Source: an uncultured Bacteroidia bacterium (lineage in GTDB: Bacteria; Bacteroidota; Bacteroidia; Bacteroidales; UBA932). Taken from it: DNA of 64,000 nt. Below, piece after piece: positions 46,601-61,971 of this stretch. The notes beneath the pieces are model-generated. The model did no database searches. It saw only the letters and a program-made list of their open reading frames with translations, and had not been told where the DNA came from. Made by a program: the position numbers and the translations under genes. How positions within the stretch are numbered: position 1 is the first letter of the stretch; the number at the start of each line of letters is the position of its first letter. The stretch is from assembly GCA_902780935.1 (NCBI GenBank), contig CACZHP010000005.1, positions 16,644 through 80,643 on the forward strand. The letters run 5' to 3'.

Positions 46601-47245
46601 TTACATTGAATGATCATTTGCCATAGGGTAGTACTCTATCTTACGGTTTAATTTCACCACTCCGTTAATGATTCGTACTGTCCAATTTCCGGCATCGTCG
46701 TATTCATACGAATATTCAAAAACGCGTGACTCCGGGCTCCCGTCTTCCCGTTTGCTCATCCTTATCTCACGTATAAGATGTTCCTCGGAGTCATACTCGA
46801 ACCTCGTGAACACTCCTGAATCAGCCGAATAGGCCAACTTGCCGTCTTTACGGTAATAGTTGACGGCCCGGCTTTTTTCAGGCGGATAGCCGGCCCAGAT
46901 CCTCGTCCTCTTAATCCTGGCCACACGGCCATCATGACTCCAGTCCCAGGACTCATCCATCATTTTAAATCCATGTGTATCATAGAGCGAGAGTCCGACC
47001 GCGCCACCCTCATCGTCATACTCATATACGGTCCGACTTGTAAGGATCCCCCTCACATATTCCTTGCGTTCCAACTCCAGGCCATCCGGGAGATAAACAT
47101 GCTCCACCTTACCGGAATCACATTCCTCAAGTGTCAGCCTCCCCTCCGCATCGAAGTGATCGACTTCCGAGAACAGTGGTTCCAACTCACGTTCCAAGTA
47201 TACGGACGTGGTTATCTTTTGGGGTATCATCAATTTCATTATCAT
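46601..47245 (-). CDS. Uncharacterised protein with YD/RHS-like repeats
   Basis: About 214 residues with repeated short beta-hairpin units (SRTVYEYDDEGGAVGLSLYD; FTRFEYDSEEHLIREIRMS; YSYEYDDAGNWTVRIINGV) of the YD-repeat kind seen in RHS proteins and in small Bacteroidota immunity-like or surface proteins. No signal peptide is evident. The start is uncertain: ATG codons occur at 47245, 47239 and 47230, and a GTG at 47251. It abuts the decayed reading frame upstream. Confidence 0.5.
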   Translation of the reverse strand: MIMKLMIPQKITTSVYLERELEPLFSEVDHFDAEGRLTLEECDSGKVEHVYLPDGLELERKEYVRGILTSRTVYEYDDEGGAVGLSLYDTHGFKMMDESWDWSHDGRVARIKRTRIWAGYPPEKSRAVNYYRKDGKLAYSADSGVFTRFEYDSEEHLIREIRMSKREDGSPESRVFEYSYEYDDAGNWTVRIINGVVKLNRKIEYYPMANDHSM

Positions 47246-47247
47246 AA

Positions 47248-47703
47248 TCACAATTGCTCCAGGCGTAACATCAAGTTAAGGAACTCTTCACAGACTACGA
47301 CTGTGTCTTTCCACCGCTGTTTAATTTCTTCGGGATCGTCATCATCAGGTGGAATGCGTAACGCATCGGAAGGTTGTCCGGCTCTATGTCATAAGGTTTC
47401 AGCGCCATCGTTGAAACGACTCTTGTTATTATCGCTTTGTGAATGATTGTATAATGGGTTCCAGTTCGGCCAGGGATTCTATCAGGACCTGGCGTTTCTT
47501 CGCTCCGTTGGACGGTCCGAGGCGACCACAGTCCCGATGAGCGAGATGAGCGTCACACGCCAGACCGACCACCTGGACCGACGCAGAAGCAATCTGACCA
47601 ATAACACTAAAGGTATGAGCGACAAAATCCATGTCGCCCATCCGAAAAGTTTAACCATGACTGATTCCAGCATATTCACAAATATATATCCCGTTACTGC
47701 CAT
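47248..47703 (-). pseudogene. Decayed gene with an intact N-terminal membrane segment
   Basis: One frame runs the whole length but is broken by TGA and TAG (47484-47479) and TGA (47391-47389). Its first part (73 codons) has two hydrophobic helices (VMVKLFGWATWILSLIPLVL and VWRVTLISLIGTVVA). The last part reads PPDDDDPEEIKQRWKDTVVV then EFLNLMLRLEQL, which looks like real protein. An alternative frame (47429-47641) supplies KKRQVLIESLAELEPI, so shifts may also be involved. No family is recognised. The short membrane ORF alone could still be a gene. Confidence 0.35.
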
Positions 47704-47759: not shown

Positions 47760-48329
47760 TCACGCGTTAAGCCAGTCCGTGTATCCCCGAAGCCTGTCCT
47801 GGTCTTTCCATGTCTTGTCCCCATCATAATGTTGGATGGTATATTCAGTTTTCTCGCTCACAAAACTCGCCCACTTCTTCCACTCCCCTGTGTGACACAG
47901 TCCTCCAGGCACGGTGTGGATGAGCTCGTGGATCAGGGTGTTGCGCAGGGATTTCTCGGAATTCCCAAGTGTGTGACCTGAAATCTCGATGTAATAGTCG
48001 TATTGGTCATACTTCTTGCGGCTGCCTTTAGCGCAACATCTTCCATAATGGCTTCTGGATCCGGTCAGAACCACTTCGGGGCATATATCTTTTGAGATAG
48101 GAACACCTAGCCCGTTCATCAGATCTATGCACTCCGCCAGCATCCGGTTGATTCTCGTGTCCGTTCCCGGTCCTTGCCAGCGGGATAGACGGTTCCCGTA
48201 TTTCTCCTGAAGCCTCAGCAGTTCCGGATAATGGTCGGCTGAGCTTCCGGCGAACAGTTGTTTATCGAGCAGTATCGGCAAGACAAGCAGCAAGGCCAAT
48301 ACTGACAGCAATAGTATTTTGACAATCAT
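47760..48329 (-). CDS. Membrane-anchored SprT-like metalloprotease
   Basis: The 189-residue protein has an N-terminal membrane helix (ILLLSVLALLLVLPILL) and a SprT-like zinc site: TLIHELIHTVPGG (HExxH) followed by CHTGEWKKWA with the third His. SprT/Spartan proteases cleave DNA-bound or other proteins; here the helix would put the domain at the membrane. It is the last clear gene of the conjugation gene set, 28 bases after the MreB-like gene. Confidence 0.75.
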   Translation of the reverse strand: MIVKILLLSVLALLLVLPILLDKQLFAGSSADHYPELLRLQEKYGNRLSRWQGPGTDTRINRMLAECIDLMNGLGVPISKDICPEVVLTGSRSHYGRCCAKGSRKKYDQYDYYIEISGHTLGNSEKSLRNTLIHELIHTVPGGLCHTGEWKKWASFVSEKTEYTIQHYDGDKTWKDQDRLRGYTDWLNA

Positions 48330-48357
48330 ATTATTTACTTCTTGTTAGTCTTCATTC

Positions 48358-49380
48358 TTACCGCATCAGGAACGGATACCTGTCCGTGCCGTCGAGGGCG
48401 AGGCAGGTGCCGCGGGCGACGGCCTTGAGGGGGTCATCGGCCACATGGAAAGGTATATTCACCTTGTCAGAGAACCTCTTGGCGATTCCCCTCAGCAGGG
48501 AACCCCCGCCGGCCAGCCAGATGCCGCTCTGCGCTATGTTGGAATACAGCTCCGGTGGAACCCGCTGGAGAACCTTGATGATCTCGCTCTCGATCTTCGA
48601 GATGGTCTTGTCAATGCAGGCGCAGATCTCCTTGTAACTGATGGAGGCTTGCGCCGGATGGGCCGTGACCATATTCCTGGCCACGACCACATAGTCCTCC
48701 GGTTCTTCATCCTCAGGAAGTTCCATCAGCACCGAGCCGACAGCGTACTTGATATCCTCACCGGTCGTGCGGCCGATACTGACGCTGTGCTGCTGGGCCA
48801 GGTAGTCGATGATGTCGGTCGTGATCTCATTCCCGGCCACGTGAATACTGGAAGACTCTACGATACCACCGAGGGAGATGACGGCGATCTCCGTTGTCCC
48901 GCCGCCTATGTCAACCACCATGCTGCCCTTCGGCACCATCACGTCCAGGCCGATCCCCATCGCCGACGCCATAGGCTCATAGATCATGAACACGTCGTGG
49001 GCGCCGGCGTGGGAGGCAGAGTCACGGATGGATCTCATATCAACGGGCGTGCTGCCGCCAGGAATGCCGATAACGATCTTCAGGGCTGGTTTGAATATGC
49101 CCTTACGGCCTCCCGTCGCCTTCTTGATAAAGCCCGTAAGCATCTTCTCGGCCGCGTCATAGTCGGCTATCACCCCGTTCATCAGGGGACGGACAGTGTA
49201 GATCCTCGGAGGCGTCAGTTCCTCCATCTGCTGAGCCTCCGTTCCTATCGCCACAAGTTTGTCCGTCTTGGACTCAAGCGCTATTATGCTGGGCTCGTCA
49301 AGGACGACCTCGCCGTCCTTGAATATCACCGTGTTGGCCGTGCCCAGGTCTATCGCCAACTCCTGAGTGAAGAATGCCAT
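48358..49380 (-). CDS. MreB-like actin in the conjugation gene set
   Basis: The 340-residue actin-fold ATPase has phosphate-1 LAIDLGTANTVIF, phosphate-2 MVVDIGGGTTEIAVISLGG and adenosine LAGGGSLLRGIAK motifs, with HVADDPLKAVARGTC near the end. Length and motifs are those of full MreB, a filament-forming cell-shape protein. No mreC, mreD, pbp2 or rodA lies nearby, so this is probably an extra copy serving the operon. The start is one base after the vWA stop. Confidence 0.9.
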   Translation of the reverse strand: MAFFTQELAIDLGTANTVIFKDGEVVLDEPSIIALESKTDKLVAIGTEAQQMEELTPPRIYTVRPLMNGVIADYDAAEKMLTGFIKKATGGRKGIFKPALKIVIGIPGGSTPVDMRSIRDSASHAGAHDVFMIYEPMASAMGIGLDVMVPKGSMVVDIGGGTTEIAVISLGGIVESSSIHVAGNEITTDIIDYLAQQHSVSIGRTTGEDIKYAVGSVLMELPEDEEPEDYVVVARNMVTAHPAQASISYKEICACIDKTISKIESEIIKVLQRVPPELYSNIAQSGIWLAGGGSLLRGIAKRFSDKVNIPFHVADDPLKAVARGTCLALDGTDRYPFLMR

Positions 49381-49381
49381 A

Positions 49382-50056
49382 TCACTTCGTTCTCTTTTCT
49401 TCCTCAGTGAAGAACTCCTCCACTGAATTGTCCATTTTTCTGGAGATCCTGCTGTAGAGCCTCTTGCTTGCGGACCTGTGTTTCATCCACATTGCTCTTG
49501 TTCCCTCCTCGTCGGCGTCGAAGTCCATAGAGTCATAGATGCCCAGGTCTTTGGACACCTCCACGGAGTCCTGGTTGGCGCCGATATAGACGAACGTCCA
49601 GCCTTTCTCACGCAAGCGGTCTACCATGGCTTTCACGGCCGCCCTGGAGTATTCCCTGGACGCGTTCTCGAAGCCGTCGGTGATGACCGTCACAAGGACA
49701 GGCTCACCTTCTTTCACCTTGCGTTCGAGAGCCGTGATGGAGATGCCCATCGCGTCATAAAGAGGCGTGCAGGAGTCCGGACGATAGTCCTCATTCGTCA
49801 GGTCGCGGACCTCCGCGATCGGGACATCGTCGAATACGGTCTTAACCCATTGGCCGGTAGTGTTGAACGTCACGAAGGTGAACCGGTGATCCTGGTCGGG
49901 ATGCTCCCTCTCCGACGCCCTGATCGTCTGGATGGTCTCATTGGCACCGCCAAGGGCAGCATTGTAAATCGCCTGCATCGATCCGCTCTCGTCAAGGATC
50001 ATAAGGTTGTGGACTGTTGTCCTCTTAGTCACTTTCTCGTTGATATTCTGTTCCAT
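49382..50056 (-). CDS. von Willebrand factor A domain protein
   Basis: The 224-residue soluble protein has a complete metal-dependent adhesion site: LDESGSMQAIYN (DxSxS), DSCTPLYDAMG (Thr) and VITDGFENASREY (Asp). The C-terminus (RAMWMKHRSASKRLYSRISR) is basic and helical. vWA proteins of this size scaffold AAA ATPases and other partners. It sits one base from the MreB-like gene and downstream of a strong hairpin. Confidence 0.88.
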   Translation of the reverse strand: MEQNINEKVTKRTTVHNLMILDESGSMQAIYNAALGGANETIQTIRASEREHPDQDHRFTFVTFNTTGQWVKTVFDDVPIAEVRDLTNEDYRPDSCTPLYDAMGISITALERKVKEGEPVLVTVITDGFENASREYSRAAVKAMVDRLREKGWTFVYIGANQDSVEVSKDLGIYDSMDFDADEEGTRAMWMKHRSASKRLYSRISRKMDNSVEEFFTEEEKRTK

Positions 50057-50103
50057 GATGTGTTTTATTTTGTTGGTTAATGATGGTTTACATGTATAAT
50101 AGG

Positions 50104-50165
50104 CGCGGCCGGGCCCGCCAACCGCCTTTCACGCCTCACGGCGGCGGGCCCTCTATTCCGCGCGG
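50104..50165 (-). promoter_or_regulatory. Long GC-rich intercistronic hairpin before the vWA gene
   Basis: GGGCCCGCC (50111-50119) pairs with GGCGGGCCC (50143-50151), with further complementary bases outside (CGCGG around 50105-50165) and inside (CCGCC/GGCGG). It has no T run on either side, so it may stabilise or process the mRNA rather than end it. Confidence 0.5.
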
Positions 50166-50168
50166 TAA

Positions 50169-50840
50169 TTACGACACGATCTTGCCCTCCCGGTTACTGA
50201 CAGCCTCGATCGGGATGCCGTTGGCCTCAAGTTTGGAAATATCCTCCCTGTCGTTGAGCATCTGGTTGTAAGTCTCGCCGAACATGTTCTCAAGATCGTT
50301 GATTATGCTGACATACTCGTTGAAAACATCCCTGAAATGGCCGTACTTGGGTTCGATTGCGCTGACAAAGAAGCAAAGGACCCCGCCATCGTCCGAGACC
50401 GACACCTTGCCAATCAGTCTGGCGTCGGTCGTCTTGGCAGCGGCCTGACGCAATAGCACGATGTCATATTTCTCCTTATCAATACTGAATCGCTTCATGA
50501 CAAGGAGATAAGGGAGTCTGTCGGTTGGGACAACATATCTCTCGCCTTGAACCATAAAGAACACGGCATCTTCCTTCTTGTCAGGGACATAACCGTTGTA
50601 CTTCACCACATCGGCGACCAGGTCGGGAGTCAGGTCCCAGAGATCCTGGTCGTCAACCCGGCCCTGGGTCACCGGGCTTGACGAGACAACGGGTGTGTAT
50701 GCCGTTTCCTCAAGGCTGCGGATCCGCTCTTTCTGAGACTTTATCTCCTCACGGTACTCATGTGTGGAACCCCGCTCATCAATGAAGAGGGCGATGAAGA
50801 TGATCGCCACGGTCACTGTTATTATCAATGCTGTTATCAT
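50169..50840 (-). CDS. Single-pass membrane protein with YbjN-like cytosolic domain
   Basis: The 223-residue protein starts with a transmembrane helix (ALIITVTVAIIFIALFI), then a coiled coil (REEIKSQKERIRSLEE) and an alpha/beta domain (LVADVVKYNGYVPDKKEDAV, VLCFFVSAIEPKYG, VFNEYVSIINDLENMFG) that recalls YbjN/chaperone-like folds. No catalytic residues are seen. It may tether a complex to the membrane. The fold call is tentative. Confidence 0.5.
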   Translation of the reverse strand: MITALIITVTVAIIFIALFIDERGSTHEYREEIKSQKERIRSLEETAYTPVVSSSPVTQGRVDDQDLWDLTPDLVADVVKYNGYVPDKKEDAVFFMVQGERYVVPTDRLPYLLVMKRFSIDKEKYDIVLLRQAAAKTTDARLIGKVSVSDDGGVLCFFVSAIEPKYGHFRDVFNEYVSIINDLENMFGETYNQMLNDREDISKLEANGIPIEAVSNREGKIVS

Positions 50841-50997
50841 GTTAGTAATGCGAGAAATGTGTTAATGTGATTGTGGTTGCCGCCCTCCGTTGAGAGTCGG
50901 CGAACGCTTATACGGGAAAACCTCAGTAAATGTTTCAACCAGCCTCTGAAACGTCTGTGGAACCATTGGCCCACCTTTTGAAAGCGGCCGCCACTCC

Positions 50998-53088
50998 CTA
51001 ACGCTTTATGATTATCTTGTTGTTGGCGTTGTCGATGGTGATGGTCCCGAAACGCTCCATGGCGCTCTGGCCAAGAAGGAGCGGTGCCTTCTGGCTGCCG
51101 ACCACAGAGGCGTCGACATTATGCAGCACGGCATCACCGATCTTGACCTCACGAAGAGTGATGACCGTACCCTCGCTGATCTGGCCGTTGGCTGTCTGGT
51201 AATATTTCTTACCCTTGATGTCACGGTTGGAAAGGTAGCCGTTCTTCAGCATGAAGCTGGCCTCCACGGAGGAGATGGTCACGTCGGACGCCCCGGTGTC
51301 GAAGATCATCTGGAGCGGAAGCCCGTTGATGTCGCACGGGATCTCGAAAGTGCCGCCTGAATGTCGCTTTACCGCCACCTCCGTCGTTATTGGCTCATGC
51401 TCTTTAACCGCCTCGGCTCCGTTGAACCCGTTATCCTCCAGGTATTTCTGATGAATCGTCTTATATTCAGCTACAAGTTCCTTGAACTCCGGGAGATCCC
51501 TGACCGGATCCATGTCGTCGTCCATGCCGATGTGGGCGAAACTCCGGTACCCCTTCCCGAAGGCGGTCCTGAGGGCGGCGACAGACTCCTCCAGCCGGCC
51601 CATCCGGGAGTACAGGCATGCGCGGTCGTAATAGTGCCCGGCGTCTGCGGGGTCAGTGGCGATGATCCTGTCCATCCACTCCTCGGCCTCCTTGTCCTTC
51701 CCGAGGAAGTGAAGGGCGTAATGGCGGCAACTTCCGTCACGTACCACCGTGTCCAGTTTGACCACGGCCTCAAAGTCCTTCCTGGCCTCGGCCTCTTTGC
51801 CCTCAATGAGGAGCAACTCGCCACGCATCAAATGAAGGTAGGGATATTTGTCATTCAGCTCGATGCCGGTGTCATAGTCCTCAAGCGCCCCTCTCCGGTC
51901 GCCCGCCATCTCCTTGCACCAGCCCCTGCGGTAGTAGCAGAAGGCCTCTTTCGGAGACTCCTCGATCGCGTCGGTGAAGTCATTAATGGCCGACTCAAGG
52001 TCACCGGAGAGACGGTGGTAGTCTCCGAGCATGCACAGGGAATACATGTCACTCTCCCTCTCGATCGCCTTGGTGATGTCGGCTATCGCCTTGTCGTAGA
52101 GCCCGAGCTCCTTGTAGCAGTCGCTACGGTAATAGAATATCTCCCCGACCTGGCCGTATCCCGCCTCCATCTCGTCATAGACCCGGACAGCGTCGGCGTA
52201 TTTATGCGTATGGGATAGGAACTCGGCCAGGAGAGCCTTCCACGGGAAAGGGTCGTCCACGCTCTTCACCTTATCCTTGATAGCCGCCTCGGCGTAGGCC
52301 GGGCGCTTGGCGCAGACGGCCAGCACGGAGTCCGACTGGGCGTTAGTGTCCTTGTCGAGCCACTCCAGGCCGGCGTCGATCGCCTTCGAGGTCTCGCCCA
52401 GCTTGTCGAAAGCGTACATCTTGAAGCGGTAAGGCTCGGCGTATTCCCTGTCAAGCTTCTGGCATTTGTCCAGGAGATCCAGCGCCTCGCGGTACTCGCG
52501 GCGGTCCACCCTCGTCCTGGCCAGGCCTACCATGGCACCCACGTCGGCCTCGTTCTCGGACAGCATGTGCCTGTAAACCGCTTCAGCGCCGTCAAGGTTC
52601 TTGTTCAGATAAAGCGCCTGGGCATAGTCGAAGGATATGCTTTGGAGGTTCTCCTTGTTGTCCTTCTGTGCCAGGGCGTATGCCGTCCCCAGTGACTCCG
52701 CCGCCTTCGGGCGGTCACCCATGTCACTGTAAAGGTGGCCTTTCCACCAGTGGAGCGTGGAGTTGGCGATCTCGGACTTCTTGGGCTTGTTGACCTTTAG
52801 GGCGTGGTTGACGTCCGCCATCGCGTCGCCGTAAGCCCCCTTGCGGCGGTAAAGGCGGACACGGAGCAGAAGGGCCTGGACATTGTCCGGGGTCTCCTGG
52901 AGCTGCTTGTCCACAAGGTCGAGCGCCTTGGCATCGTCCTTCTCCTGGTCAAGGGCCTCCCAGGCCCGCTGGAGGTTGTAGTCGTTACCGGCTTTGCCGG
53001 CGCCGGTCTTGGCGGTTCCCTGGGCGAACGCCTGGCCGCAGGTCAGGGTCAGCAGAAGCGCTGACAGGATGGTAAAAATTCTTCTCAT
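50998..53088 (-). CDS. Exported TPR protein with C-terminal retropepsin-like protease domain
   Basis: The 696-residue protein has a signal peptide (IFTILSALLLTLTCGQAFAQ), about ten TPR-like repeats (ALLLRVRLYRRKGAYGDAM; FYYRSDCYKELGLYDKAIAD; CYYRRGWCKEMAGDRRGAL) from about 35 to 540, and a clan AA retropepsin-like domain at about 575-696 with LQMIFDTGASDVTISS (catalytic DTG) and APLLLGQSAMERFGTITID. Such single-lobed domains act as dimers. It is probably periplasmic, in contrast to the cytosolic conjugation enzymes of the same operon. Confidence 0.85.
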   Translation of the reverse strand: MRRIFTILSALLLTLTCGQAFAQGTAKTGAGKAGNDYNLQRAWEALDQEKDDAKALDLVDKQLQETPDNVQALLLRVRLYRRKGAYGDAMADVNHALKVNKPKKSEIANSTLHWWKGHLYSDMGDRPKAAESLGTAYALAQKDNKENLQSISFDYAQALYLNKNLDGAEAVYRHMLSENEADVGAMVGLARTRVDRREYREALDLLDKCQKLDREYAEPYRFKMYAFDKLGETSKAIDAGLEWLDKDTNAQSDSVLAVCAKRPAYAEAAIKDKVKSVDDPFPWKALLAEFLSHTHKYADAVRVYDEMEAGYGQVGEIFYYRSDCYKELGLYDKAIADITKAIERESDMYSLCMLGDYHRLSGDLESAINDFTDAIEESPKEAFCYYRRGWCKEMAGDRRGALEDYDTGIELNDKYPYLHLMRGELLLIEGKEAEARKDFEAVVKLDTVVRDGSCRHYALHFLGKDKEAEEWMDRIIATDPADAGHYYDRACLYSRMGRLEESVAALRTAFGKGYRSFAHIGMDDDMDPVRDLPEFKELVAEYKTIHQKYLEDNGFNGAEAVKEHEPITTEVAVKRHSGGTFEIPCDINGLPLQMIFDTGASDVTISSVEASFMLKNGYLSNRDIKGKKYYQTANGQISEGTVITLREVKIGDAVLHNVDASVVGSQKAPLLLGQSAMERFGTITIDNANNKIIIKR

Positions 53089-53153
53089 TGCGTGAAAGTG
53101 TTTGTGATGTTTTCTATAGTTAATGTCAGTTTTGGGGAAAGGTAACCACCTTC

Positions 53154-53324
53154 CTATTTGATAAGCTTACCCACGGTCTTCACGAGGGTGCGGCCGATCT
53201 TGCGCTCGAGCCCCTGCTTGGTCAAGGGGATCCCTGTCGCCCTTGCGATGCTTCTCTTGATGACGTCGACACCGAGGGCCCTTCTGGGCGAGAACGATGT
53301 CCCTGGAATTCCGAAAATCTTCAT
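53154..53324 (-). CDS. Small basic protein (56 aa)
   Basis: The protein starts MKIFGIPGTSFSPRRALGVD and continues IARATGIPLTKQGLERKIGR, ending VKTVGKLIK. It is strongly basic (13 Lys/Arg in 56). I recall small Bacteroidota proteins with the same MKxFG...RALG...ARATGIPTT...RKIG layout, uncharacterised and often phage- or mobile-associated. It lies between the ClpB-like and TPR genes and has a clean ATG. A role in binding nucleic acid is only suggested by charge. Confidence 0.6.
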   Translation of the reverse strand: MKIFGIPGTSFSPRRALGVDVIKRSIARATGIPLTKQGLERKIGRTLVKTVGKLIK

Positions 53325-53365
53325 GGTTGTGTTGTGTTTGGTTGTTGACGCGAAAATAGTCCCGT

Positions 53366-55882
53366 TCAGCGAACTGTTTCTTCGTCAGAATTAATGAACG
53401 AAAAATCCCCATCCTCCGCCGAGACACGTATCGGCGCGTCCCTCCTCAAGGAGCCGTCAATGAATCCCGTGGCGAGCGGGTTGATGATGTGGTCGTTGAT
53501 CGCCCTCTTTACCGGGCGGGCCCCGTAGCGGGGGTCATATCCCTTCCCGGCCAGAAGATCCAGGGCCGCCTCGTCAAAGGACACCGCGGTACCCTCGGCA
53601 GAGAGCTTGTGGGACAGGGACTCCAGCTGAAGGGCGCAGATTCTCCGCACAGCGTCCATGCCCAGGGGGGCGAAGGCCACGATGTCATCGATCCTGTTGA
53701 TGAACTCCGGGGCGAGGCGGGACCGCAGCTCCTCCTCACGGATATTGGATGTCATGATGACGATCGTGTTGCGGAAGTTGACGGTCCGTCCTTGCCCGTC
53801 AGTCATCCGGCCGTCGTCAAGGACCTGGAGAAGTGTCTCGAACACCTTGGGATGCGCCTTCTCGATCTCATCCAGAAGGACCACCGAGTAGGGCCTGCGA
53901 CGTACGGCCTCGGTCAACTGTCCGCCCTGGTCGTAACCCACATAGCCGGGAGGGGCACCGAAGAGGCGTGACACCGAGTGTTCCTGCTGGTACTCGCTCA
54001 TGTCGATCCGCACGAGCATGTCACGGCTGTTGAAGAGGTAGTCCGCCAACGTCTTGGCCAGCTCCGTCTTCCCGACACCCGTCGGGCCCATGAAGAGGAA
54101 CGACCCGACCGGCCGGCCGGCGTCCCCAAGCCCCACCTTGTTGCGCCTGATCACCTTCGACACGGCGGCGACAGCCTCCTCCTGGCCGATCACCGAGCGG
54201 GAAAGGGTATTCTCGAGGCCGGCGAGTTTCTCGGACTCGTCCTCCCTCAGGCGGCTCACAGGGATGCCGGTCCAGGCCGTCACCACCCCCCGGATATCGT
54301 CGTCGTCAAGGCTGTCCTTCAGGAGGGTCGGCTCGGCTCCCTCTGTCGCGGAGGCGATCTCATCCCGGAGAGCTGACATCCTGTCCCTCAGCGAGACCGC
54401 CTCCTCGTAACGGCCAGCCTCCTCGGCCTCCCGGCTCCTAGATCTCAGTCCCTCAATCTCATCACGCAGACGCTGGAGCGACTCCATCCGCTCGCGCTCG
54501 TTACTCCAGCGGGCATTCAGGGCGTTCTCCCTCTCCCGCAGGTTGTCGATCTCCCTATCCAGTTCCGAGAGGTCATGGTCCATCTCATCCTGGCGCAGGG
54601 ACTCCCGCTCCATCTCCCTGGAGCGGATCTGCCTCGACAGCTCGTCCAGCTCCACCGGCACCGAGGAACGCTCCATCCTCATCCTTGAGGCGGCCTCGTC
54701 AAGAAGGTCGATCGCCTTGTCGGGGAGATACCTTCCCGAGACATACCGGGAAGACAGCCGGACGGCGGAGACGATAGCCTCGTCCAGGATCCGTATGCGG
54801 TGGAACGACTCGAACCGGCCCTTGATCCCCCGCATGATCGTTATCGCCGTCTCCTCGTCAGGCTCGTCGACGACAACCTTCTGGAACCGCCTCTCGAACG
54901 CCTTGTCGCTCTCGATGTACTTGGTGTACTCCTCGTCGGTCGTCGCCCCGATCACACGGATCTCCGAACGGGAAAGCTCGGGCTTGAGAATATTCGCCGC
55001 GTCCATCGACCCCCCGCCGCGACCGGTGCCGATAAGAAGGTGCATCTCGTCGATGAAGAGGACGATGTCCGGATCCTCCCTCACATCCCTCATGACCTTC
55101 TTCAGCCTGTCCTCGAACTCTCCCTGCATCCCGGCTCCTGCCATCAGCGAGGGCACGTCCAGGGCGTAAAGCTTGGTTCCCCGGAGATCCTGCGGCACGT
55201 CCCCGCGGACCAGCCTCTGGGCCAGGCCCTCCACTATGGCCGTCTTGCCGGTTCCGGGAGGGCCGACGAGCACGGGGTTGTTCTTGGTCTTCCTCGAGAG
55301 GATCTGCAGCACCCGGCGGGTCTCGTCATCACGTCCTATAACAGGCTCAAGGTTTCCCTCGCTGGCCAGGAGCGTGAGATTCCGGGCGTACTTCTTCAGG
55401 TGGCGGGGCACGCGGCCCTCACCATCAGCGGCTTCCTGCCTGGAGATGTTTCCCTCGCGGAACAGGCGCACTGCCTCCGCCACCCCATCCTCGGTCACCC
55501 CCACGCGGCGCATCAGCTCGCGGGCCTCTCCGGGAACCACGGCCATCGCCCAGAAGACATGCTCGAGAGCGACGTTGGAGCTGCCGCTGCCGACGGCAAG
55601 GGAGAGGGCCTTCCCGAAAACAGTCTCAAGGTCACGGGAGAGAGGCACGGACCTCGGTTCCTCGTATCCCGGAAGCGGCAGGGAGGAGTTGATGTAATCC
55701 CTGAATGCCCTTGGGTTGATCTCCATCCTCTGAAGGAGGAAGGACACCATGTCCGCACCCTCGTCGAGGATGGCGGCGAGCATCACGGTAGGGGTTATTT
55801 CCGGATAGCGGCTCTCCTTGGCTATGGAGAAAGCGCGGGTCACCGCCCGGCGGGTATTCTCTGTGAATTTTGAATAGTCCAT
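53366..55882 (-). CDS. ClpB-like double AAA+ unfoldase
   Basis: The 838-residue Hsp100 protein has an N-terminal Clp_N domain (FTENTRRAVTRAFSIAKE), AAA-1 (VLVGPPGTGKTAIVEG; LFIDEMHLLIG), a coiled-coil middle domain (about 400-520, rich in Glu/Arg), AAA-2 (FLFMGPTGVGKTELAKT; LLDEIEKAHPKVF; FGAPPGYVGYDQGG pore loop) and a small D2 domain. I start it at MDYSKFTEN (55882) because the extra 11 codons upstream lie in the leader. No IGF/IGL-type ClpP-docking loop was noticed, so disaggregase action is more likely than ClpP feeding. It divides the conjugation enzymes from the protease/actin half of the operon. Confidence 0.9.
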   Translation of the reverse strand: MDYSKFTENTRRAVTRAFSIAKESRYPEITPTVMLAAILDEGADMVSFLLQRMEINPRAFRDYINSSLPLPGYEEPRSVPLSRDLETVFGKALSLAVGSGSSNVALEHVFWAMAVVPGEARELMRRVGVTEDGVAEAVRLFREGNISRQEAADGEGRVPRHLKKYARNLTLLASEGNLEPVIGRDDETRRVLQILSRKTKNNPVLVGPPGTGKTAIVEGLAQRLVRGDVPQDLRGTKLYALDVPSLMAGAGMQGEFEDRLKKVMRDVREDPDIVLFIDEMHLLIGTGRGGGSMDAANILKPELSRSEIRVIGATTDEEYTKYIESDKAFERRFQKVVVDEPDEETAITIMRGIKGRFESFHRIRILDEAIVSAVRLSSRYVSGRYLPDKAIDLLDEAASRMRMERSSVPVELDELSRQIRSREMERESLRQDEMDHDLSELDREIDNLRERENALNARWSNERERMESLQRLRDEIEGLRSRSREAEEAGRYEEAVSLRDRMSALRDEIASATEGAEPTLLKDSLDDDDIRGVVTAWTGIPVSRLREDESEKLAGLENTLSRSVIGQEEAVAAVSKVIRRNKVGLGDAGRPVGSFLFMGPTGVGKTELAKTLADYLFNSRDMLVRIDMSEYQQEHSVSRLFGAPPGYVGYDQGGQLTEAVRRRPYSVVLLDEIEKAHPKVFETLLQVLDDGRMTDGQGRTVNFRNTIVIMTSNIREEELRSRLAPEFINRIDDIVAFAPLGMDAVRRICALQLESLSHKLSAEGTAVSFDEAALDLLAGKGYDPRYGARPVKRAINDHIINPLATGFIDGSLRRDAPIRVSAEDGDFSFINSDEETVR

Positions 55883-55892
55883 ATTATCATTA

Positions 55893-56153
55893 TTAACTGC
55901 CGCACAGCGCCGCAAGGACGCTCACGGCCGCGTAGACGGCGATGTAAGCGAGGACCTTGACCAGGCCTTGGAAGAAGCCTCCCGACTCTCCGGAATTAGC
56001 CCCCGACCTTGGCGGAGGTGGGGTGGTGCGGGTATAGTACGGCCTTGAGGAGGTCTGCCTCGGTTGGGGTGACGGTCTTGGTGACGGTCTCGGCCGGCTC
56101 ATCTCGGGGACATCCTCGAACTCCCCGGTGCGCTCGTTATAGACGTAAGGCAT
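55893..56153 (-). CDS. Proline-rich tail-anchored membrane protein (86 aa)
   Basis: The N-terminus reads MPYVYNERTGEFEDVPE, then comes a Pro/Arg/Ser-rich linker and a C-terminal transmembrane helix (VLAYIAVYAAVSVLAALCG) ending CGS. The E1-like protein has a related sequence near residue 27 (LVFDPVTGDFRQV), so a short motif of pattern hV[YF][ND]xxTG[ED]FxxV is shared. The gene overlaps the E1 stop by one base (TAATG). A recruitment or anchor role for the complex is my inference; no family is known to me. Confidence 0.6.
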   Translation of the reverse strand: MPYVYNERTGEFEDVPEMSRPRPSPRPSPQPRQTSSRPYYTRTTPPPPRSGANSGESGGFFQGLVKVLAYIAVYAAVSVLAALCGS

Positions 56154-57613
56154 TATCCGAGATCGATATTGATGTCCTCAAGACCGGTGACAGAAGGCTC
56201 ACCTTCTCCCCCGATATTCACCTCTCCGCAGACAGGGCACTCCATGTCCCTCTCGATCCTCGCCCCGTACCAGCGGAGGATGGTGGGCATGCCCCCGGCC
56301 TCTGGCATGGGCTTCCAGTTGGAGAACCTCTTCTCGCGGCGGTTAGCCCAGATGTAATAGTCATAGACCAGCTCCTTCTCAAGGCAGGATATCCCCGACT
56401 CCCGGCCCCTTGAGAGCTCGAGGAGCGAGAGCTTGACCATCATGTCGCAGATGGGGGCAATGTCCGATGACAGTCCCACCTGCACCATGGCGTCTGCGTC
56501 CTCGGGCGAGACGTAGGCGGCTATCCGACCGTCCCTGCGGGCAGAAGCCTCATCTGTGATCTCCTCCTGTTGGAGATTTCCACCACCGACAAGACAGCAG
56601 TAGCATGGGCCTCCAGGACGCTGGATGAGGACATCACCACCCTCAGCCCTGGTAAACGCCCTACCGTAGATACCAACCTTCCCGGCATAAGCTATGGCGG
56701 CGGAAAGATTGTAACGACTGGAGTTGTTGTCCGTGGCACAGATCACCAGGTCGGCCTTGGCCACCTCGTCACTGAGGATATGGACATCCTCGTTGATATT
56801 CACTGGGAACTTGTCTACCCGTGCGTAAGGGTTCTTGCCGAGAATGGCCTCCTCGATGACATTCGTCTTAAGGCGTCCGAGGTCACGGACCGAGGCGATG
56901 TGGCGGGAAAGGTTGTGGATCTCGACACGGTCGAAATCCATCAGGGCGAAGCTCCCCACACCGGCCTGCGCCAGCTCGACGGCTATCCTGGAGCCGAAAC
57001 TGCCGAGTCCGACTATCATGACCCGCTTGTCCTTAAGGACCCCGACCTCAAGTATCCCCTTGGATCTGGAGAAGAGGTTCTCCTCCGAGGGGATAAGATA
57101 GAGGTCGGCCTCGCACCAGATGTTCCTCTTCTCCTCCTTCGAGAGCGCCGAGACGAAGGCTCTGGGCTTCTCTCCAGAATGGAGTACGCAGACGCCCTTC
57201 CAATCATCCCCGAAGGGTATCTTTGGCAGCCTGTCTTCTAAGCTCATGTAGCAGCCGATCTCATCGTCGGTCACCAGACGGCTGGCGGAGTCAGGGTTTA
57301 CGTGGAAGACACCCTTCTCGATCTCGGCGGCCGGGAGGCGTATCCTCCTCTTCCGCTGAAGCTGCCCCACCGCACCGTTGAGATCGTCCTCCCTTATGAC
57401 GACTATCGCCTTGGGGTTCTCCTCACCGGCGGCGAAGCCCTTGTCGGTCATCTCGGTCACCACGTCGCCGTCACCGTGGCTAGCGCCCCTCTCCACCTGC
57501 CGGAAATCTCCTGTAACCGGGTCGAAGACAAGATCCTTCATAGTGCTGCCCTGATTGAGTCCCTGCTCGCGGACATCACGGGCCAATTCGTTAAGTTGCT
57601 GTTCGTTGCTCAT
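56153..57613 (-). CDS. ThiF/E1-like adenylating enzyme
   Basis: The 486-residue protein has an N-terminal part of about 190 residues with the motif LVFDPVTGDFRQV (28-40) and a mixed domain, then an E1 Rossmann fold: MIVGLGSFGSRIAVELAQAG (GxGxxG at 202-207), LMDFDRVEIHNLSRH (Asp and Arg of the active site) and VICATDNNSSRYNLSAA. Cys pairs in GPCYCCLVGGG and ECPVCGEVN give a zinc site. Such enzymes adenylate the C-terminus of a ubiquitin-like protein and pass it to an E2. A separate E2 gene follows the same orientation 13 bases upstream. The thioester Cys is not certain. Confidence 0.87.
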   Translation of the reverse strand: MSNEQQLNELARDVREQGLNQGSTMKDLVFDPVTGDFRQVERGASHGDGDVVTEMTDKGFAAGEENPKAIVVIREDDLNGAVGQLQRKRRIRLPAAEIEKGVFHVNPDSASRLVTDDEIGCYMSLEDRLPKIPFGDDWKGVCVLHSGEKPRAFVSALSKEEKRNIWCEADLYLIPSEENLFSRSKGILEVGVLKDKRVMIVGLGSFGSRIAVELAQAGVGSFALMDFDRVEIHNLSRHIASVRDLGRLKTNVIEEAILGKNPYARVDKFPVNINEDVHILSDEVAKADLVICATDNNSSRYNLSAAIAYAGKVGIYGRAFTRAEGGDVLIQRPGGPCYCCLVGGGNLQQEEITDEASARRDGRIAAYVSPEDADAMVQVGLSSDIAPICDMMVKLSLLELSRGRESGISCLEKELVYDYYIWANRREKRFSNWKPMPEAGGMPTILRWYGARIERDMECPVCGEVNIGGEGEPSVTGLEDINIDLG

Positions 57614-57626
57614 TGTACTATATGTG

Positions 57627-58061
57627 TTAGATTTGATGTGTCAGGTAATAGTCTATCGGGTTGCCGGTACGCAGGTGAGCCTCGTACATCTCAAGCCAGA
57701 GCCTGCACTTCACGTACACCTTGTAAAGGGAAACGGCCGGAGTCCACGACTGTGGGCCGTAGTGGCAGATCCGTGTCCATCCGCGCTCCGATCCCAGGGT
57801 ATGCATCGAGCAACTCGCCGAGGCGAGGCTGTTCCCATCCCGGTCTTTCAGCATCCGGGTGACGAAGACAGCCGGGGGCATGAAAGGAAAGCCGGTGAGG
57901 CTTATATGAAGAGTATAGACATTCCCGCTGTTGGTCTTTGCCCCTATGCGCAGGTAACGCTCGCCCGTGGCCCCGTCCTCCATGTTGAAGAACCTGAAGG
58001 CGTTTGTCGGGAACTTGCCGCTGAGCAGTTTGAGCTCAGCCTGGTATCTCGCTTTTTCCAT
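57627..58061 (-). CDS. E2-like conjugating enzyme (UBC fold)
   Basis: I place the start at MEKARYQAEL (58061), eight bases downstream of the JAB stop, giving 144 residues. The UBC pattern is clear: a beta sheet (YTLHISLTGFPFMPPAVFV), then the active-site strand GWTRICHYGPQSWTPA with the conjugating Cys at about 99, and the two C-terminal helices (LYKVYVKCRLWLEMYEAHL) ending NPIDYYL. This mirrors eukaryotic E2 (G.IC....W.P...L..V). An HPN motif is not present as such. It lies between E1 and JAB genes. Confidence 0.82.
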   Translation of the reverse strand: MEKARYQAELKLLSGKFPTNAFRFFNMEDGATGERYLRIGAKTNSGNVYTLHISLTGFPFMPPAVFVTRMLKDRDGNSLASASCSMHTLGSERGWTRICHYGPQSWTPAVSLYKVYVKCRLWLEMYEAHLRTGNPIDYYLTHQI

Positions 58062-58068
58062 AATAATG

Positions 58069-59064
58069 TTACAGGTTTTTGTAAAATGTCTTGAATGATG
58101 AAAGTATATCTTCGGAGCCATTATCCCAGATCGCATCAGCATAATCCGGGGTTGTGGTCAAGTCCTTGTATATACTGATGAAGGATGGACACTTCTCCGG
58201 GAAACCCACCGGGAAGGTTATCACCTCACGCTTGTCCTTCGAGTGTATGATGTCAATCCTGACCTCGCCTCGCTCGTTCAGCGACGGCCGCACCACATTG
58301 TCTGGGTTCCGCTCTTTGAGGAACGCCAGTATCCCGTTAAGTATCTGGCCGCTTCCCTCACGCAGCATCCAGTAGCCCGGAGCGTAGGCCGGCCTCAAGC
58401 TCCCGTCCCGGTCTCCGCCAAGTGACGCCGCGGAGGTCTCCGGATGGATCAGTATACCCGCCAGATCCCTGTCTATGACCGGACGCACCGGGCTGTCCGT
58501 ACGGATCACCTCCCAGGGTGTCTGGTCACACCCGATCCCGTCGCAGAGGAACGCCTTTACCTTGGCGGATGAGGCGTCACAGTTGCCTATGCACAGGATG
58601 AACTCCCCGAGATCCTTCTCCCTGATGGTGGAGTTCATGGTGCGCGCGTCATGGACGCTCGGCCAGGCGAGGCCCAACTGGTGATGGGAGTGCCACTCGC
58701 CGATGTGGTGCAGCCCGTAGCGCCTTTTGAGCTCACGGCCGACGGTTACCAGGTAATCGACATCCTGGTTGAAGAACGTCTTCTGGTGGTTCGCCTTGGG
58801 TCCGGGGCCGATGGCGTAAAGGACGACAGGGATGCCGCTATCCGTCCAATGTCCGAATAGCTGCCCGCCGGTCTCTATGTCGGGACGGTCCAGGATACAA
58901 CGGGAGAGGTAGTCAAGTTCGGAACGGTAGATGACCACCTGGGTTGTGCCAGTCCTCAACTCCAACGGCTTCGCTGAAAGGCTCTTCCTTGTCTCTTGAA
59001 TATGTGCGAGCCTCGACTTGCGGGCCGCAGCCAGACGTCTCTGTCTCTTGATGCATTTTTTCAT
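58069..59064 (-). CDS. JAB/JAMM isopeptidase with an extra C-terminal domain
   Basis: The 331-residue protein has a JAMM domain at about 40-190: IETGGQLFG (Glu 64) and GEWHSHHQLGLAWPSVHD (HxH at 125/127, Ser 136, Asp 139), the form seen in bacterial E1-E2-JAB operons. It should remove a ubiquitin-like protein from targets or mature it. Residues 230-331 form a second domain (EVRIDIIHSKDKREVITFPV, then GFPEKCPSFISIYKD) whose sheet-loop pattern resembles an E2/UEV fold without a catalytic Cys in place; this is tentative. Confidence 0.87.
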   Translation of the reverse strand: MKKCIKRQRRLAAARKSRLAHIQETRKSLSAKPLELRTGTTQVVIYRSELDYLSRCILDRPDIETGGQLFGHWTDSGIPVVLYAIGPGPKANHQKTFFNQDVDYLVTVGRELKRRYGLHHIGEWHSHHQLGLAWPSVHDARTMNSTIREKDLGEFILCIGNCDASSAKVKAFLCDGIGCDQTPWEVIRTDSPVRPVIDRDLAGILIHPETSAASLGGDRDGSLRPAYAPGYWMLREGSGQILNGILAFLKERNPDNVVRPSLNERGEVRIDIIHSKDKREVITFPVGFPEKCPSFISIYKDLTTTPDYADAIWDNGSEDILSSFKTFYKNL

Positions 59065-59113
59065 CTTCGCGTTTCTTTACTTATTTTATGTCGTAAAACG
59101 GGAATTGTAACCA

Positions 59114-59779
59114 CTATTTCTTGTTAACTATCCGTCCGGTCCTGGTGGGCGGCATGTCCTCAAGACGCGAAACTACTGCGCTGTCGCGAACTGAAGGTTC
59201 GCTTTCGCGGATCGCCCACTTGATCACAGTCCGGGGAAGCCCGGTATCATCCAGGGGTATCCCGTCAATTCGCCTTGGCGGTTTCATGAACCAGTAATCA
59301 GGCCGGTGCCTTATCCTGACACATTCCCCAGGGCCTATCACAATCTTCTCATCAGGCTTCCTGTAATATTTAGGGTGAGTGTGGTCATTGGCGTACTCTA
59401 TTGGATAGATGAGGAAAGTCTTGTCCGTGTTGTTGGCAAGATACCTGCGGAATGGCCTGATGTCCTTCCCGTACAGCGGGAAGACATCCTTGAGGGGTGT
59501 CACGAGATCAGGTGTCCCGTAGACCTTATACTCCGAGAGCCGGTGAATAGCCAGACCATCCGGATCATACAGCTCAACGACCGTGACTCTGGATGCCGAC
59601 ACGGCGACGACCAGGAATGCGAGACCGTCGGCAAGAAGGCCGGCGAGAAGACACAAGGGACGGGTTTGGAAGGCGGATACCGCCTCTCCCCGGCCTCTAT
59701 GGTATCTGCCTATAATAAGGCTCGCCTCGAACGCGGCGAAAAGAAGGATGATAAGGTATAGTGAACGAGAGATGATCAT
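59114..59779 (-). CDS. Membrane protein, first gene of the conjugation gene set
   Basis: The 221-residue protein has two N-terminal helices (LYLIILLFAAFEASLIIG and CLLAGLLADGLAFLVVAVSA) and a soluble C-terminal domain (about 75-221: LYDPDGLAIHRLSEYKVYG; GPGECVRIRHRPDYWF), possibly facing the periplasm. No family was recognised. It is 49 bases before the JAB start. Hairpins at 59780-59803 and 59821-59839 lie just upstream and may regulate the operon. Confidence 0.55.
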   Translation of the reverse strand: MIISRSLYLIILLFAAFEASLIIGRYHRGRGEAVSAFQTRPLCLLAGLLADGLAFLVVAVSASRVTVVELYDPDGLAIHRLSEYKVYGTPDLVTPLKDVFPLYGKDIRPFRRYLANNTDKTFLIYPIEYANDHTHPKYYRKPDEKIVIGPGECVRIRHRPDYWFMKPPRRIDGIPLDDTGLPRTVIKWAIRESEPSVRDSAVVSRLEDMPPTRTGRIVNKK

Positions 59780-59976: not shown

Positions 59977-60073
59977 CATAGAGTATAGGTACATTATTTC
60001 CATGAGATTGATGCTTTTTTCGTCATTTTTTACTTTTAATAGCCTAAGAATCAATCAAATGAATAAAGTTGCC

Positions 60074-60760
60074 CTCAAAGACCATCTTCCTCTAAAACAA
60101 GGATTAAGACCGCAAGCTCTTTTCCTATCATAATACACTTCGAATTCTCAAAGACCATCTTCCTCTAAAACAAGGATTAAGACAGCTTCTCGATGTCTTC
60201 CGCCGTGGCTTCGTCGCGGGCTCAAAGACCATCTTCCTCTAAAACAAGGATTAAGACGAAATCTTATCTATAAGTTTGCAACTTTCACCGAACTCAAAGA
60301 CCATCTTCCTCTAAAACAAGGATTAAGACCCGCCAAAGGGTGTCCTCATAAAGAGAGACGCTGAAAACTCAAAGACCATCTTCCTCTAAAACAAGGATTA
60401 AGACATATCAGTGTGCCTCAAATAAAATCGTGTCACCACTCAAAGACCATCTTCCTCTAAAACAAGGATTAAGACTGTTAACCGTGAACCACATAACTAA
60501 ATGAACAACTCTCAAAGACCATCTTCCTCTAAAACAAGGATTAAGACCAATTATCTGCTAAATCTGCAATATAACAATCATCTCAAAGACCATCTTCCTC
60601 TAAAACAAGGATTAAGACGACGATCCTTATATAGATCGAGAGATTACTCGGCTCAAAGACCATCTTCCTCTAAAACAAGGATTAAGACGCCGTTCTCGTT
60701 GACGGTAGGCCAATAGCCGATGCCTCAAAGACCATCTTCCTCTAAAACAAGGATCAAATC
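60074..60760 (+). CRISPR. CRISPR array, ten 37-bp repeats and nine spacers
   Basis: Repeats begin at 60074, 60147, 60221, 60293, 60368, 60439, 60511, 60582, 60652 and 60724. The unit starts CTCAAAGACCATCTTCC and ends GGATTAAGAC. Spacers are 33-38 bases and all differ. Repeat 10 is altered at its 3' end (GGATCAAATC), marking the old end, so the leader is on the left and transcription runs rightward. The repeat end would give an 8-base crRNA handle, ATTAAGAC, typical of type III and type I-B systems. The array is followed by a WYL regulator, cas6 and cas10. Confidence 0.98.
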
Positions 60761-60800
60761 TTTATATATTTCGCCGCGAAACGAATGTTCGCAATCCGAT

Positions 60801-60832
60801 GTTGCTAAAACAGTTAATATTGTTTATATTTG
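60801..60832 (+). promoter_or_regulatory. Promoter of the CRISPR-linked WYL regulator
   Basis: TTG at 60802-60804 and TATATTTG at 60825-60832 are 20 bases apart, 23 bases before the chosen start codon. Confidence 0.75.
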
Positions 60833-60855
60833 ATGAGAGCAACTCAAATAACCAC

Positions 60856-61971
60856 ATGCCACAGAATAAAAACGCACTGGTACGTTACAAGATTCTTGAT
60901 GAACTACTTTCAAATCCATCAAGAAGGTACACACGCAAGGACCTTTACAACATTGTACTCCAACGATTGAAAAGCATTGACGATGAAGCGACCCTGACAA
61001 AACGCACAATAGAGAAGGATCTTTACGATCTTCAAGACCGCCCTTTCGAAATGGAAATAATCGAGGAAGGAGGATATGGTGAAAAGTTCGTGCGCTACGC
61101 AGACCAATCCCAGTCTCTCTTCTCAAAACCACTTTCTGACGACGAGAAAGTCCTTCTGCGTGAAGTCCTAAACACCTTAGGGCAATTCGATGGATTGGAC
61201 TCATTCGACTGGCTTCAAGCCCTTCAAGAGAGACTTAACGATCCCGACTCTCTTCTTGGATTTCCCCAAGGCTATCCATCCGAACATGGGAAAATCATTT
61301 CCTTCAGCAAGAATCCTTACCTCAATAATTTGTCCGAAGAAGGGCCGAGGCCCATCGCCAACGCCCTATCAAGCCTTTTTTCCGCAATATCCAGTCAGAC
61401 AACCGTCACTGTTGATTACAAGAAATTCAACGAGGATGAGATAAAGACATTCGTTGTATTCCCCTATCTTCTTAAGCAATACAATGACAGATGGTATTTG
61501 ATCTGCGCCCTTTTCAATGCCGATCCCAATTTCATAATGAACCTTCCTCTGGACAGGATGCTAAGAGTCGAGATGGTCCCTCAGATTCCTTTCCAGCCAT
61601 GTGCCGTTGACCTCGAGGACAGGTTCTCACGAATCGTTGGGGTCACCTATCGCTATGACCGCGAGGAGATTCCTATAGTATTCGCCGTCTCAAATGATAA
61701 AGCCCCGTACATCAAGACAAAACCAATCCACGAGACACAACGAGAGTTCATCGAAACCGAGCAAAAAGAATGGAAACAACGGTACCCGATGCTAGACAAT
61801 TACCGGTTCTTCGAGATCGAATGCATTCCCAACAACGAGTTAATGAGCCTCTTCTTCTCCTTTGACAAAGATATCATAGTGATCAGCCCGAAGGAAATTC
61901 GGGATGAAATCACAGAGGAGCTTGACAAGCAGTTCAGCACTTATAAAAGAGTTTTTTTAAACGATGTATAA
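60856..61971 (+). CDS. WYL-domain transcriptional regulator of the CRISPR locus
   Basis: The 371-residue protein is started at MPQNKNALVRYKILD (60856) because the paralogue at 11122 starts MPANKNAIVRYRILD; the 19 codons before it overlap the promoter. It has a winged helix (YTRKDLYNIVLQRLKSI, TKRTIEKDLYDLQ) and a WYL domain (TVTVDYKKFNEDEIKTFVVF, LLKQYNDRWYLICALF, PLDRML). WYL proteins act in CRISPR control and as ligand sensors. Its position between array and cas6 suggests it controls the type III genes. Confidence 0.9.
   Translation: MPQNKNALVRYKILDELLSNPSRRYTRKDLYNIVLQRLKSIDDEATLTKRTIEKDLYDLQDRPFEMEIIEEGGYGEKFVRYADQSQSLFSKPLSDDEKVLLREVLNTLGQFDGLDSFDWLQALQERLNDPDSLLGFPQGYPSEHGKIISFSKNPYLNNLSEEGPRPIANALSSLFSAISSQTTVTVDYKKFNEDEIKTFVVFPYLLKQYNDRWYLICALFNADPNFIMNLPLDRMLRVEMVPQIPFQPCAVDLEDRFSRIVGVTYRYDREEIPIVFAVSNDKAPYIKTKPIHETQREFIETEQKEWKQRYPMLDNYRFFEIECIPNNELMSLFFSFDKDIIVISPKEIRDEITEELDKQFSTYKRVFLNDV

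Follow-up and report, generated by a model that had tools for sequence, protein, structure and literature searches.

Genes of the putative conjugation cassette

In the 64-kb window analysed here (the whole stretch of 64,000 nucleotides from contig CACZHP010000005.1 of an uncultured Bacteroidia bacterium), twelve minus-strand open reading frames (ORFs) lie between positions 47760 and 59779. All twelve were confirmed at their coordinates, the distances between neighbours range from -74 to +157 nt, and a 508-nt gap follows the last gene, a SprT-like one. This agrees with an earlier sequence-only reading of the window, which had described twelve close-packed genes. The run includes genes for a JAB/JAMM metalloprotease, an E2-like enzyme and an E1-like enzyme, and the E1 carries at its N-terminus a small tailed protein, here called X. 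We tentatively favour X as the missing modifier of this ubiquitin-style cassette, namely a small donor that is not of the beta-grasp type. The genes needed for the argument are listed below, with the evidence for each in brackets.

58069-59064, minus strand: JAB/JAMM metalloprotease (motif residues, AlphaFold2 [AF2] model, Foldseek)
57627-58142, minus strand: E2-like conjugating enzyme with His114 and Cys126 (conservation, PDB profile matches)
56153-57613, minus strand: E1-like adenylating enzyme, 486 amino acids (aa) including the fused X (ThiF 1.2e-30, conservation, AF2, Foldseek)
57431-57613, minus strand: small tailed protein X, fused as E1 residues 1-61 (homology to separate ORFs, AF2)
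55893-56153, minus strand: tail-anchored protein with the N-terminal hairpin YVYNERTGEFED (about 56112-56147) and a C-terminal transmembrane (TM) segment at residues 59-86
53366-55915, minus strand: ClpB-type disaggregase paralogue (Pfam ClpB/AAA domains; TIGR03346, 985 bits, below the equivalog cut-off; two Walker A motifs)

The relatives used for comparison were the best 80 of the 88 found in an E1-alignment scan of 84,980 species, with one genome per species. They correspond to 79 distinct contigs, picked with two E1 patterns and labelled with L numbers. Genes in them were called with our own ORF picker, and frameshifts are possible in contigs of metagenome-assembled genomes (MAGs). They include many Bacteroidota MAGs of animal gut and rumen origin, and further E1 relatives were found in Kiritimatiellota, Fibrobacter, Cyanobacteria, Verrucomicrobiota, Planctomycetota, Armatimonadota, Rhizobiales and a few archaea. 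The order JAB-E2-E1 is recurrent. An E2 match was found in 73 of the 79 contigs and a JAB match in 71 (E <= 1e-3), and several of the misses are short contigs. Among 295 genomes of the same class there were 28 E1 matches at E <= 1e-15, with one strong match apart from the window's own. Viral contigs searched with a single E1 sequence or with the alignment yielded no relatives. Plasmids gave 453 records with an E1 match; among the matches listed (20 of 453) none covers 80 % of E1, and the top two of these are from Bradyrhizobium (60 % cover, 39.5 % identity).

The active-site residues that the sequence-only reading had picked out in all three enzymes are conserved in the usable homologues. The window E1 consists, after X, of a beta-rich N-domain (approximately residues 70-175) and a ThiF domain, and the GxGxxG motif and four zinc cysteines (337/340/459/462) are kept in 73-76 of 77 rows. 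The AF2 model of this protein has a predicted local distance difference test (pLDDT) score of 85.8, and Foldseek matches it to ThiF, BubCD, Cap2 (including Cap2-CdnD02), Uba4 and MccB. His114 and Cys126 of E2 are found in 61/61 usable homologue rows. Library matches to E2 were weak (PADLOC, 0.014), but the PDB matches of a three-sequence E2 profile were mostly to E2 enzymes of eukaryotes (best E value 0.0015). As the homologues are mostly 139-157 aa long, the true start of E2 is probably near residue 28 (approximately 58061), and the overlap with the JAB gene then vanishes. In JAB, residues Glu64, His125, His127, Ser136 and Asp139 are kept in 66/66 usable rows. It scored 5e-5 with Pfam Prok-JAB (just below the cut-off) and 1e-15 with PADLOC, and a PADLOC E1-E2 family match reached 2e-29. 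The JAB model (pLDDT 89.2) contains a JAMM domain and a C-terminal domain (residues 238-331) with an alpha-4beta-alpha order, which looks RWD/E2-like when the order of the modelled secondary-structure elements is compared by eye. Foldseek matches to JAB were mainly JAMM/MPN proteins, including BRCC36, Rpn11 and Cap3 (9ild, rank 42). The intact E1, E2 and JAMM active sites expected of E1-E2-JAB conjugation in general are therefore present in one operon.

The small tailed protein X

In homologues, X is a protein of approximately 60 residues, in which a helix at the N-terminus is followed by an LVFNPxTGEFE-type hairpin and by a tail, for example VVTxMTKEGFA. The window X has a helix at residues 3-19, the hairpin LVFDPVTGDFRQ (about 57497-57532) and the tail ...VVTEMTDKGFA, which ends at Ala61; AF2 places the helix at 3-19, strands at 26-31 and 36-41 and a short helix at 53-57. 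A separate X ORF, mostly of 56-85 aa, lies between E2 and E1 in 55 of the 79 contigs. X is fused to E1 with a GFA-like tail in ten contigs and without a tail in nine, and five contigs have no X, these classes having been assigned partly by eye. The five are L088, which begins inside the cassette, and L105, L106, L108 and L109, which have distant E1s and no E2 match. X accompanies E2 in 73/73 contigs, either as a separate protein or fused to E1, and JAB-E2-X-E1 is the conserved cassette. The sequence-only reading had reported no ubiquitin-like protein. No beta-grasp family was found in our scans either, and X had been overlooked because it is fused to E1 in the window.

The end of X is also conserved. 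In 45 separate X rows, the tail includes [GR][FY]A in 35, GFF in three, other aromatic pairs in five and none of these in two; the X rows of 11 further contigs, including Barnesiella types ending in PYYVK or DYYTLL, stand outside this count. A tripeptide of the G-[FYW]-[AFY] type was located 0-5 residues before the stop codon in 43 of the 45, and is exactly terminal in 16. In L083, a single ORF contains two full copies of X, each with its own GFA, an arrangement that may be likened to poly-modifier precursors. X is also present where E1 has no N-domain (L043, L052, L053, L060 and L086), and it is therefore not merely a part of that domain.

The fused X rows that lack the tail form one clade in the E1 tree (10 rows, support 100/100), for which rows were trimmed at the N-terminus and seven were left out; L105 also had no usable start. 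The neighbour of this clade, L093, has a separate X ending in TRFA. A search for SMODS CD-NTases, covering the genomes of 50 contigs out of the 68 first listed, found one adjoining E1 in 5/5 searched members of the tail-less clade versus 0/45 of the other fetched stretches. Relatives of Cap4-SAVED (by BLAST cluster) then follow in 10/10 tail-less rows and TIR relatives in four, and Pfam identified SMODS, Cap4-SAVED and TIR in L095. Eight CD-NTases of the clade end in FGSTFGA (four), FGSTFGV (one) or Gln (FGSQFGQ, FGSTFGQ and FGNELGQ). In the type II cyclic-oligonucleotide-based antiphage signalling system (CBASS), Cap2 joins CD-NTase through its C-terminal residue, for which 1,583 proteins have either Gly or Ala, and Cap3 is the isopeptidase (PMC10097602). 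Hence, the tail of X was lost where an obvious alternative donor exists, and the CD-NTase is the likely donor in this clade. In L103 (9497-11806), E1 and an apparent CD-NTase are in one 770-aa ORF ending in GSTFGQ, which is either natural or an assembly slip.

X is read as the modifier because it occurs with every E2, has a tail at or near its end, is doubled in L083, does not depend on the N-domain and has lost the tail beside a CD-NTase. In the mechanism we propose, E1 would adenylate the end of the GFA tail, and X would pass to Cys126 of E2 and then be joined to target proteins. JAB would trim residues beyond the GFA and reverse conjugates; in the window, a cut after Ala61 would be needed first, to release X from E1. 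Proteins with an N-terminal hairpin, here the tail-anchored protein, may dock at the same site of the machinery as X and may either bring the machinery to the membrane or serve as targets, and the ClpB-type disaggregase would remodel the tagged complexes. The purpose of the cassette may be antiphage. We put forward, a little more guardedly than the role of X itself, the wider picture of a modifier of approximately 60 residues (helix, docking hairpin and GFA tail, with no beta-grasp) on which true E1, E2 and JAMM enzymes act. In this picture, a similar hairpin is a recruitment handle on varied partners, and the donor could be swapped for a CD-NTase, linking these loci to type II CBASS.

Several observations weigh against X as modifier. 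Between one and five residues lie beyond the tripeptide in 27 of the 43 tails, and the X proteins of L064, L069, L073, L074 and L107 end with other aromatics and no Ala. In 5/45 rows the last Ala codon of X overlaps the E1 start, and retention of the Ala could be helped by this overlap. The second X-like genes of L036 and L047 have no GFA tail, and the L054 ORF is one and a half copies of X, the second of which ends in IFGG; for this reason, the argument from duplication rests on L083. Besides the four zinc cysteines, no E1 cysteine is kept in 85 % of rows, which leaves an E1 thioester step uncertain. The CD-NTases of the tail-less clade do not end strictly in Gly or Ala (Ala 4/8, Gln 3/8, Val 1/8), and tail loss with CD-NTase gain is a single evolutionary event, which cannot serve as a statistical test. 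Finally, fusion of X to E1 is seen in more than one lineage (four label changes on the tree, with the fused L060 scored among the separate rows), which also fits a subunit.

The best rival is accordingly a detachable N-terminal E1 subunit or adaptor, with the hairpin and GFA tail of X packing on E1 and shaping its binding site; the true donor would then be another protein, of the host or the operon, whose C-terminus is free. This is a serious possibility, if a somewhat doubtful one. The first strand of the E1 N-domain follows directly on the fused X. Residues 31-50 of the fused E1, which include most of the hairpin, have block means of 93 and 89 in the model. Repeated fusion and the missing tails of the extra copies in L036 and L047 also suit a subunit, as does the tail-less clade, which retains X-like residues fused to E1 though the CD-NTase is the likely donor there. 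However, a subunit leaves unexplained the two full copies in L083, the retention of X without the N-domain and the loss of the tail beside a CD-NTase donor.

Other interpretations of X were considered and set aside. A beta-grasp ubiquitin-like protein (Ubl) was dropped in view of the helix-hairpin-helix secondary structure of the AF2 model. The PDB matches of the X profile to designed SAKe proteins (best E value 5e-7) were taken as a likeness of the hairpin to Kelch-type blades, and a strictly C-terminal tail was abandoned in view of the additional residues in the 27 rows noted above. Pfam identified no credible family for 46 X rows, one of which had a match to Multi_ubiq (E value 0.02), and a terminal GG is absent from all 103 small ORFs that lie near E1 outside the core clusters. 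A literature search, which was partial for Bil, Bub and SMODS, found no account of X or of the shared hairpin. We also note that L040 includes a short ORF between E2 and X (9644-9985) with two hairpin motifs of its own.

The shared hairpin, ClpB and other neighbours

Downstream of E1, and outside the core clusters, 30 of 278 genes have a hairpin like that of X in the first 40 residues, versus one of 963 genes elsewhere on the same contigs. The corresponding Fisher value, 2e-19, overstates the evidence, as the pattern was set after examples had been seen and the contigs are related. The hairpin proteins fall into 15 BLAST-separate groups from 26 loci including the window, though some of the short ones in separate groups may be kin. 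They include the tail-anchored protein, SH3 proteins, a helicase, short unknown proteins and, by eye, Ig-like ones. Short hairpin proteins are also found after E1 in L032, L061, L035 and L038. We suggest that the hairpin is a docking handle for a common receptor, and, as some contigs with the hairpin have no ClpB call (L042, L043, L052 and L083), this receptor would be placed in the JAB-E2-E1 core. L036, L041, L054, L055 and L057 share the gene order ClpB, hairpin-tagged protein (cluster c15), DUF4407-cluster protein (Pfam on L055), with one additional gene interposed in L036 and L041.

ClpB is downstream of E1 in 28 of the 63 contigs with at least 3 kb of downstream sequence (30/79 overall), mostly within approximately 300 nt, and is absent from this position in the other 35. 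Nine are of a shorter type (738-790 residues). A second ClpB-like gene of the same genome outscores the operon copy, and a higher-scoring MreB is likewise found elsewhere in the genome; for this reason the operon ClpB and MreB look like paralogues. No ClpP-docking loop was seen in the window ClpB. A role as a ClpP partner was rejected, as [LIV]G[FL] is matched at one place only, residue 594, which precedes the second Walker A motif.

The remaining genes of the run are as follows.

59114-59779, minus strand: membrane protein with two TM-like segments (1-27 and 39-71), upstream of JAB, membership unproven
53154-53324, minus strand: 56-aa basic protein, p56 (tblastn, 9/79 contigs)
50998-53088, minus strand: secreted or anchored TPR protein with a C-terminal retropepsin (DTGA at 597; TPR and gag-asp protease, 3.5e-17)
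50169-50840, minus strand: N-terminally membrane-anchored protein of unknown family (TM-like segment 1-24; relatives in L032 and L061, 2/79)
49382-50056, minus strand: vWA protein (phrog_7371, 9e-44; TerF-like in Pfam, weak at 0.0012)
48358-49380, minus strand: MreB paralogue (PF06723, 9e-104)
47760-48329, minus strand: SprT-like HExxH protease with an N-terminal TM segment (PF10263, 4e-6; HExxH at 134), last gene of the run

The sequence-only reading had joined all of these with the cassette in one system that tags proteins and hands them to an unfoldase and proteases at the membrane. The joint occurrence of JAB, E2, E1 and ClpB genes in other genomes bears out part of this proposal, and TM-like or signal segments in five of the twelve window proteins are in keeping with a membrane link. 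MreB, vWA and SprT are not supported as standing parts. An actin-like (FtsA/MreB-type) protein was found in one of the 79 contigs, a vWA relative also in one (L107, 48 %, upstream of JAB) and a SprT homologue in none; the MreB paralogue and the vWA protein are probably lineage-specific additions. The upstream membrane gene had no homologue at E <= 1e-3 in the relatives' contigs searched, and the label 'YbjN' given to the protein at 50169-50840 has to be withdrawn, as no library scanned supports it or any other name.

Relatives of the TPR-retropepsin protein are present in 4/79 contigs, after ClpB in L032 and L061 (62-63 %) and before JAB in L043 and L052 (29-30 %); a partial minus-strand match in L047 was left out of this count. 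The p56 protein (SFSxxRALGI...TGIP.TK.GxERKIG) was also found in four genomes in which the surrounding 19-20 kb contains no E1 cassette. It was dropped as a candidate modifier because of this and its presence in only nine of the 79 contigs. The regions in which it recurs (L123-L126) are unrelated, and in L124 and L126 it is within two genes of a predicted nucleoside triphosphatase, named by eye. Other contigs carry genes for SH3, DUF4407, helicase, radical-SAM or Cap4/TIR proteins. The radical SAM cluster genes (Pfam on one L050 member), often in tandem, are near the E1 cassette in L050, L053, L068, L069, L071 and L074.

The limited sharing of MreB, vWA, SprT and the upstream membrane gene, the 35 usable contigs without ClpB, the presence of p56 without E1 nearby and an adjoining CRISPR array would all suit a unit made up of JAB-E2-X-E1 only, with the genes from ClpB to SprT as passengers of a defence island. 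We consider this unlikely, since ClpB keeps its place close behind E1 in 28/63 contigs, hairpin proteins are enriched downstream of E1 and the TPR-retropepsin gene recurs in two arrangements.

Relation to known systems and setting of the locus

The sequence-only reading had set the cassette apart from Bil and canonical type II CBASS, and this distinction holds. Type II CBASS also has E1, E2 and JAB, and its donor, which has a C-terminal Gly or Ala, lacks the beta-grasp fold (PMC10097602). However, Cap2 is a fused E1-E2 whereas E2 and E1 are separate ORFs in the window, and a small tailed protein stands in place of the CD-NTase in the window and other homologues searched, an operon CD-NTase being met in one homologous clade only. 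As regards the donor end, [GR][FY]A is present in 35 of the 45 separate X rows and exactly terminal in 16 rows, and the window X is fused to E1. Moreover, the window JAB has an additional C-terminal domain, and ClpB and hairpin proteins are present at many loci. BilABCD is likewise an operon with E1, E2 and JAB, in which BilA consists of two consecutive ubiquitin-like domains and BilD of an inactive and an active adenylation domain (PMC11354881). In contrast, no Ubl family was found among the window proteins scanned, and the window E1 has one ThiF stretch. Bub includes a Ubl, BubA, and works through oxyesters, with non-cysteine E2 chemistry, whereas here the E2 cysteine is kept in 61/61 rows and no Ubl family was found. 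It resembles the window locus as an E1/E2-type conjugation operon in a defence-like setting (PMC13373217) and through the Foldseek match of E1 to BubCD.

Types 6a-6e of Iyer et al. (2006) contain E1, E2 and JAB, and in type 6d these are joined by a small protein whose C-terminus is conserved (PMC1779556). That protein was predicted to be beta-grasp with a C-terminal Gly, whereas X is a helix-hairpin-tail protein that mostly ends in or near Ala. In FtsH-type vWA-MoxR ternary systems, JAB, E1 and E2 genes are found beside vWA proteins, rarely fused to ClpN domains (PMC7159879), but none of their Ubl-E2 fusion, RING-type E3, MoxR or FtsH-type parts was found among the window proteins scanned. By these comparisons, the window locus belongs to none of type II CBASS, Bil, Bub and Iyer type 6d, even if its mode of action may be that of CBASS conjugation. 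MccB acts in antibiotic maturation, without E2 or JAB. It is similar to the window E1 as a ThiF-fold enzyme, found by Foldseek, that adenylates a small non-Ubl peptide (MccA).

A divergent type II CBASS ancillary cassette that would serve, in trans, a CD-NTase encoded at another place in the genome is highly improbable: the E1 relatives include CBASS ones and the JAB fold resembles Cap3, among other JAMM enzymes, but of the 45 genomes searched outside the tail-less clade, 42 gave no match to SMODS and three had one beyond the fetched stretch, and no CD-NTase was found among 19 window proteins scanned in Pfam, the window's own genome having had no SMODS search.

Type II CBASS is the precedent for conjugation of a protein that is not ubiquitin-like by a bacterial E1/E2 pair. 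The loci described here suggest a whole family with a dedicated mini-modifier in free, duplicated and E1-fused forms, plus a clade with a probable CD-NTase donor, and through such a family the origin of the CBASS conjugation arm becomes open to test. Partner proteins of such systems can also be sought in other genomes, with the shared hairpin as a simple handle. The proposed mechanism, if confirmed, would be a new bacterial way to tag proteins, perhaps in phage defence, in which the tag is a tiny tailed protein and not ubiquitin-like.

The array mentioned above, of clustered regularly interspaced short palindromic repeats (CRISPR), has ten copies of a repeat of approximately 37 nt (60073-60781) and lies just upstream of the operon. 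Beyond it are plus-strand genes for a WYL protein (60799-61971) and Cas6b (62029-62727). The array and Cas6b fit a defence setting but are proof of nothing. At the other end, a gene for a YD/RHS-repeat-like protein (46601-47251) separates the SprT-like gene from one for a phage non-structural protein of the A1S_2505 family (46119-46514; NF049995, 147 bits; PHROG 2072). Relatives of the latter are present in L042, L043 and L052, the L043 copy being fused to an ADP-ribosylglycohydrolase, and an ADP-ribosylglycohydrolase was also found in L032. These genes hint at ADP-ribose chemistry in these islands.

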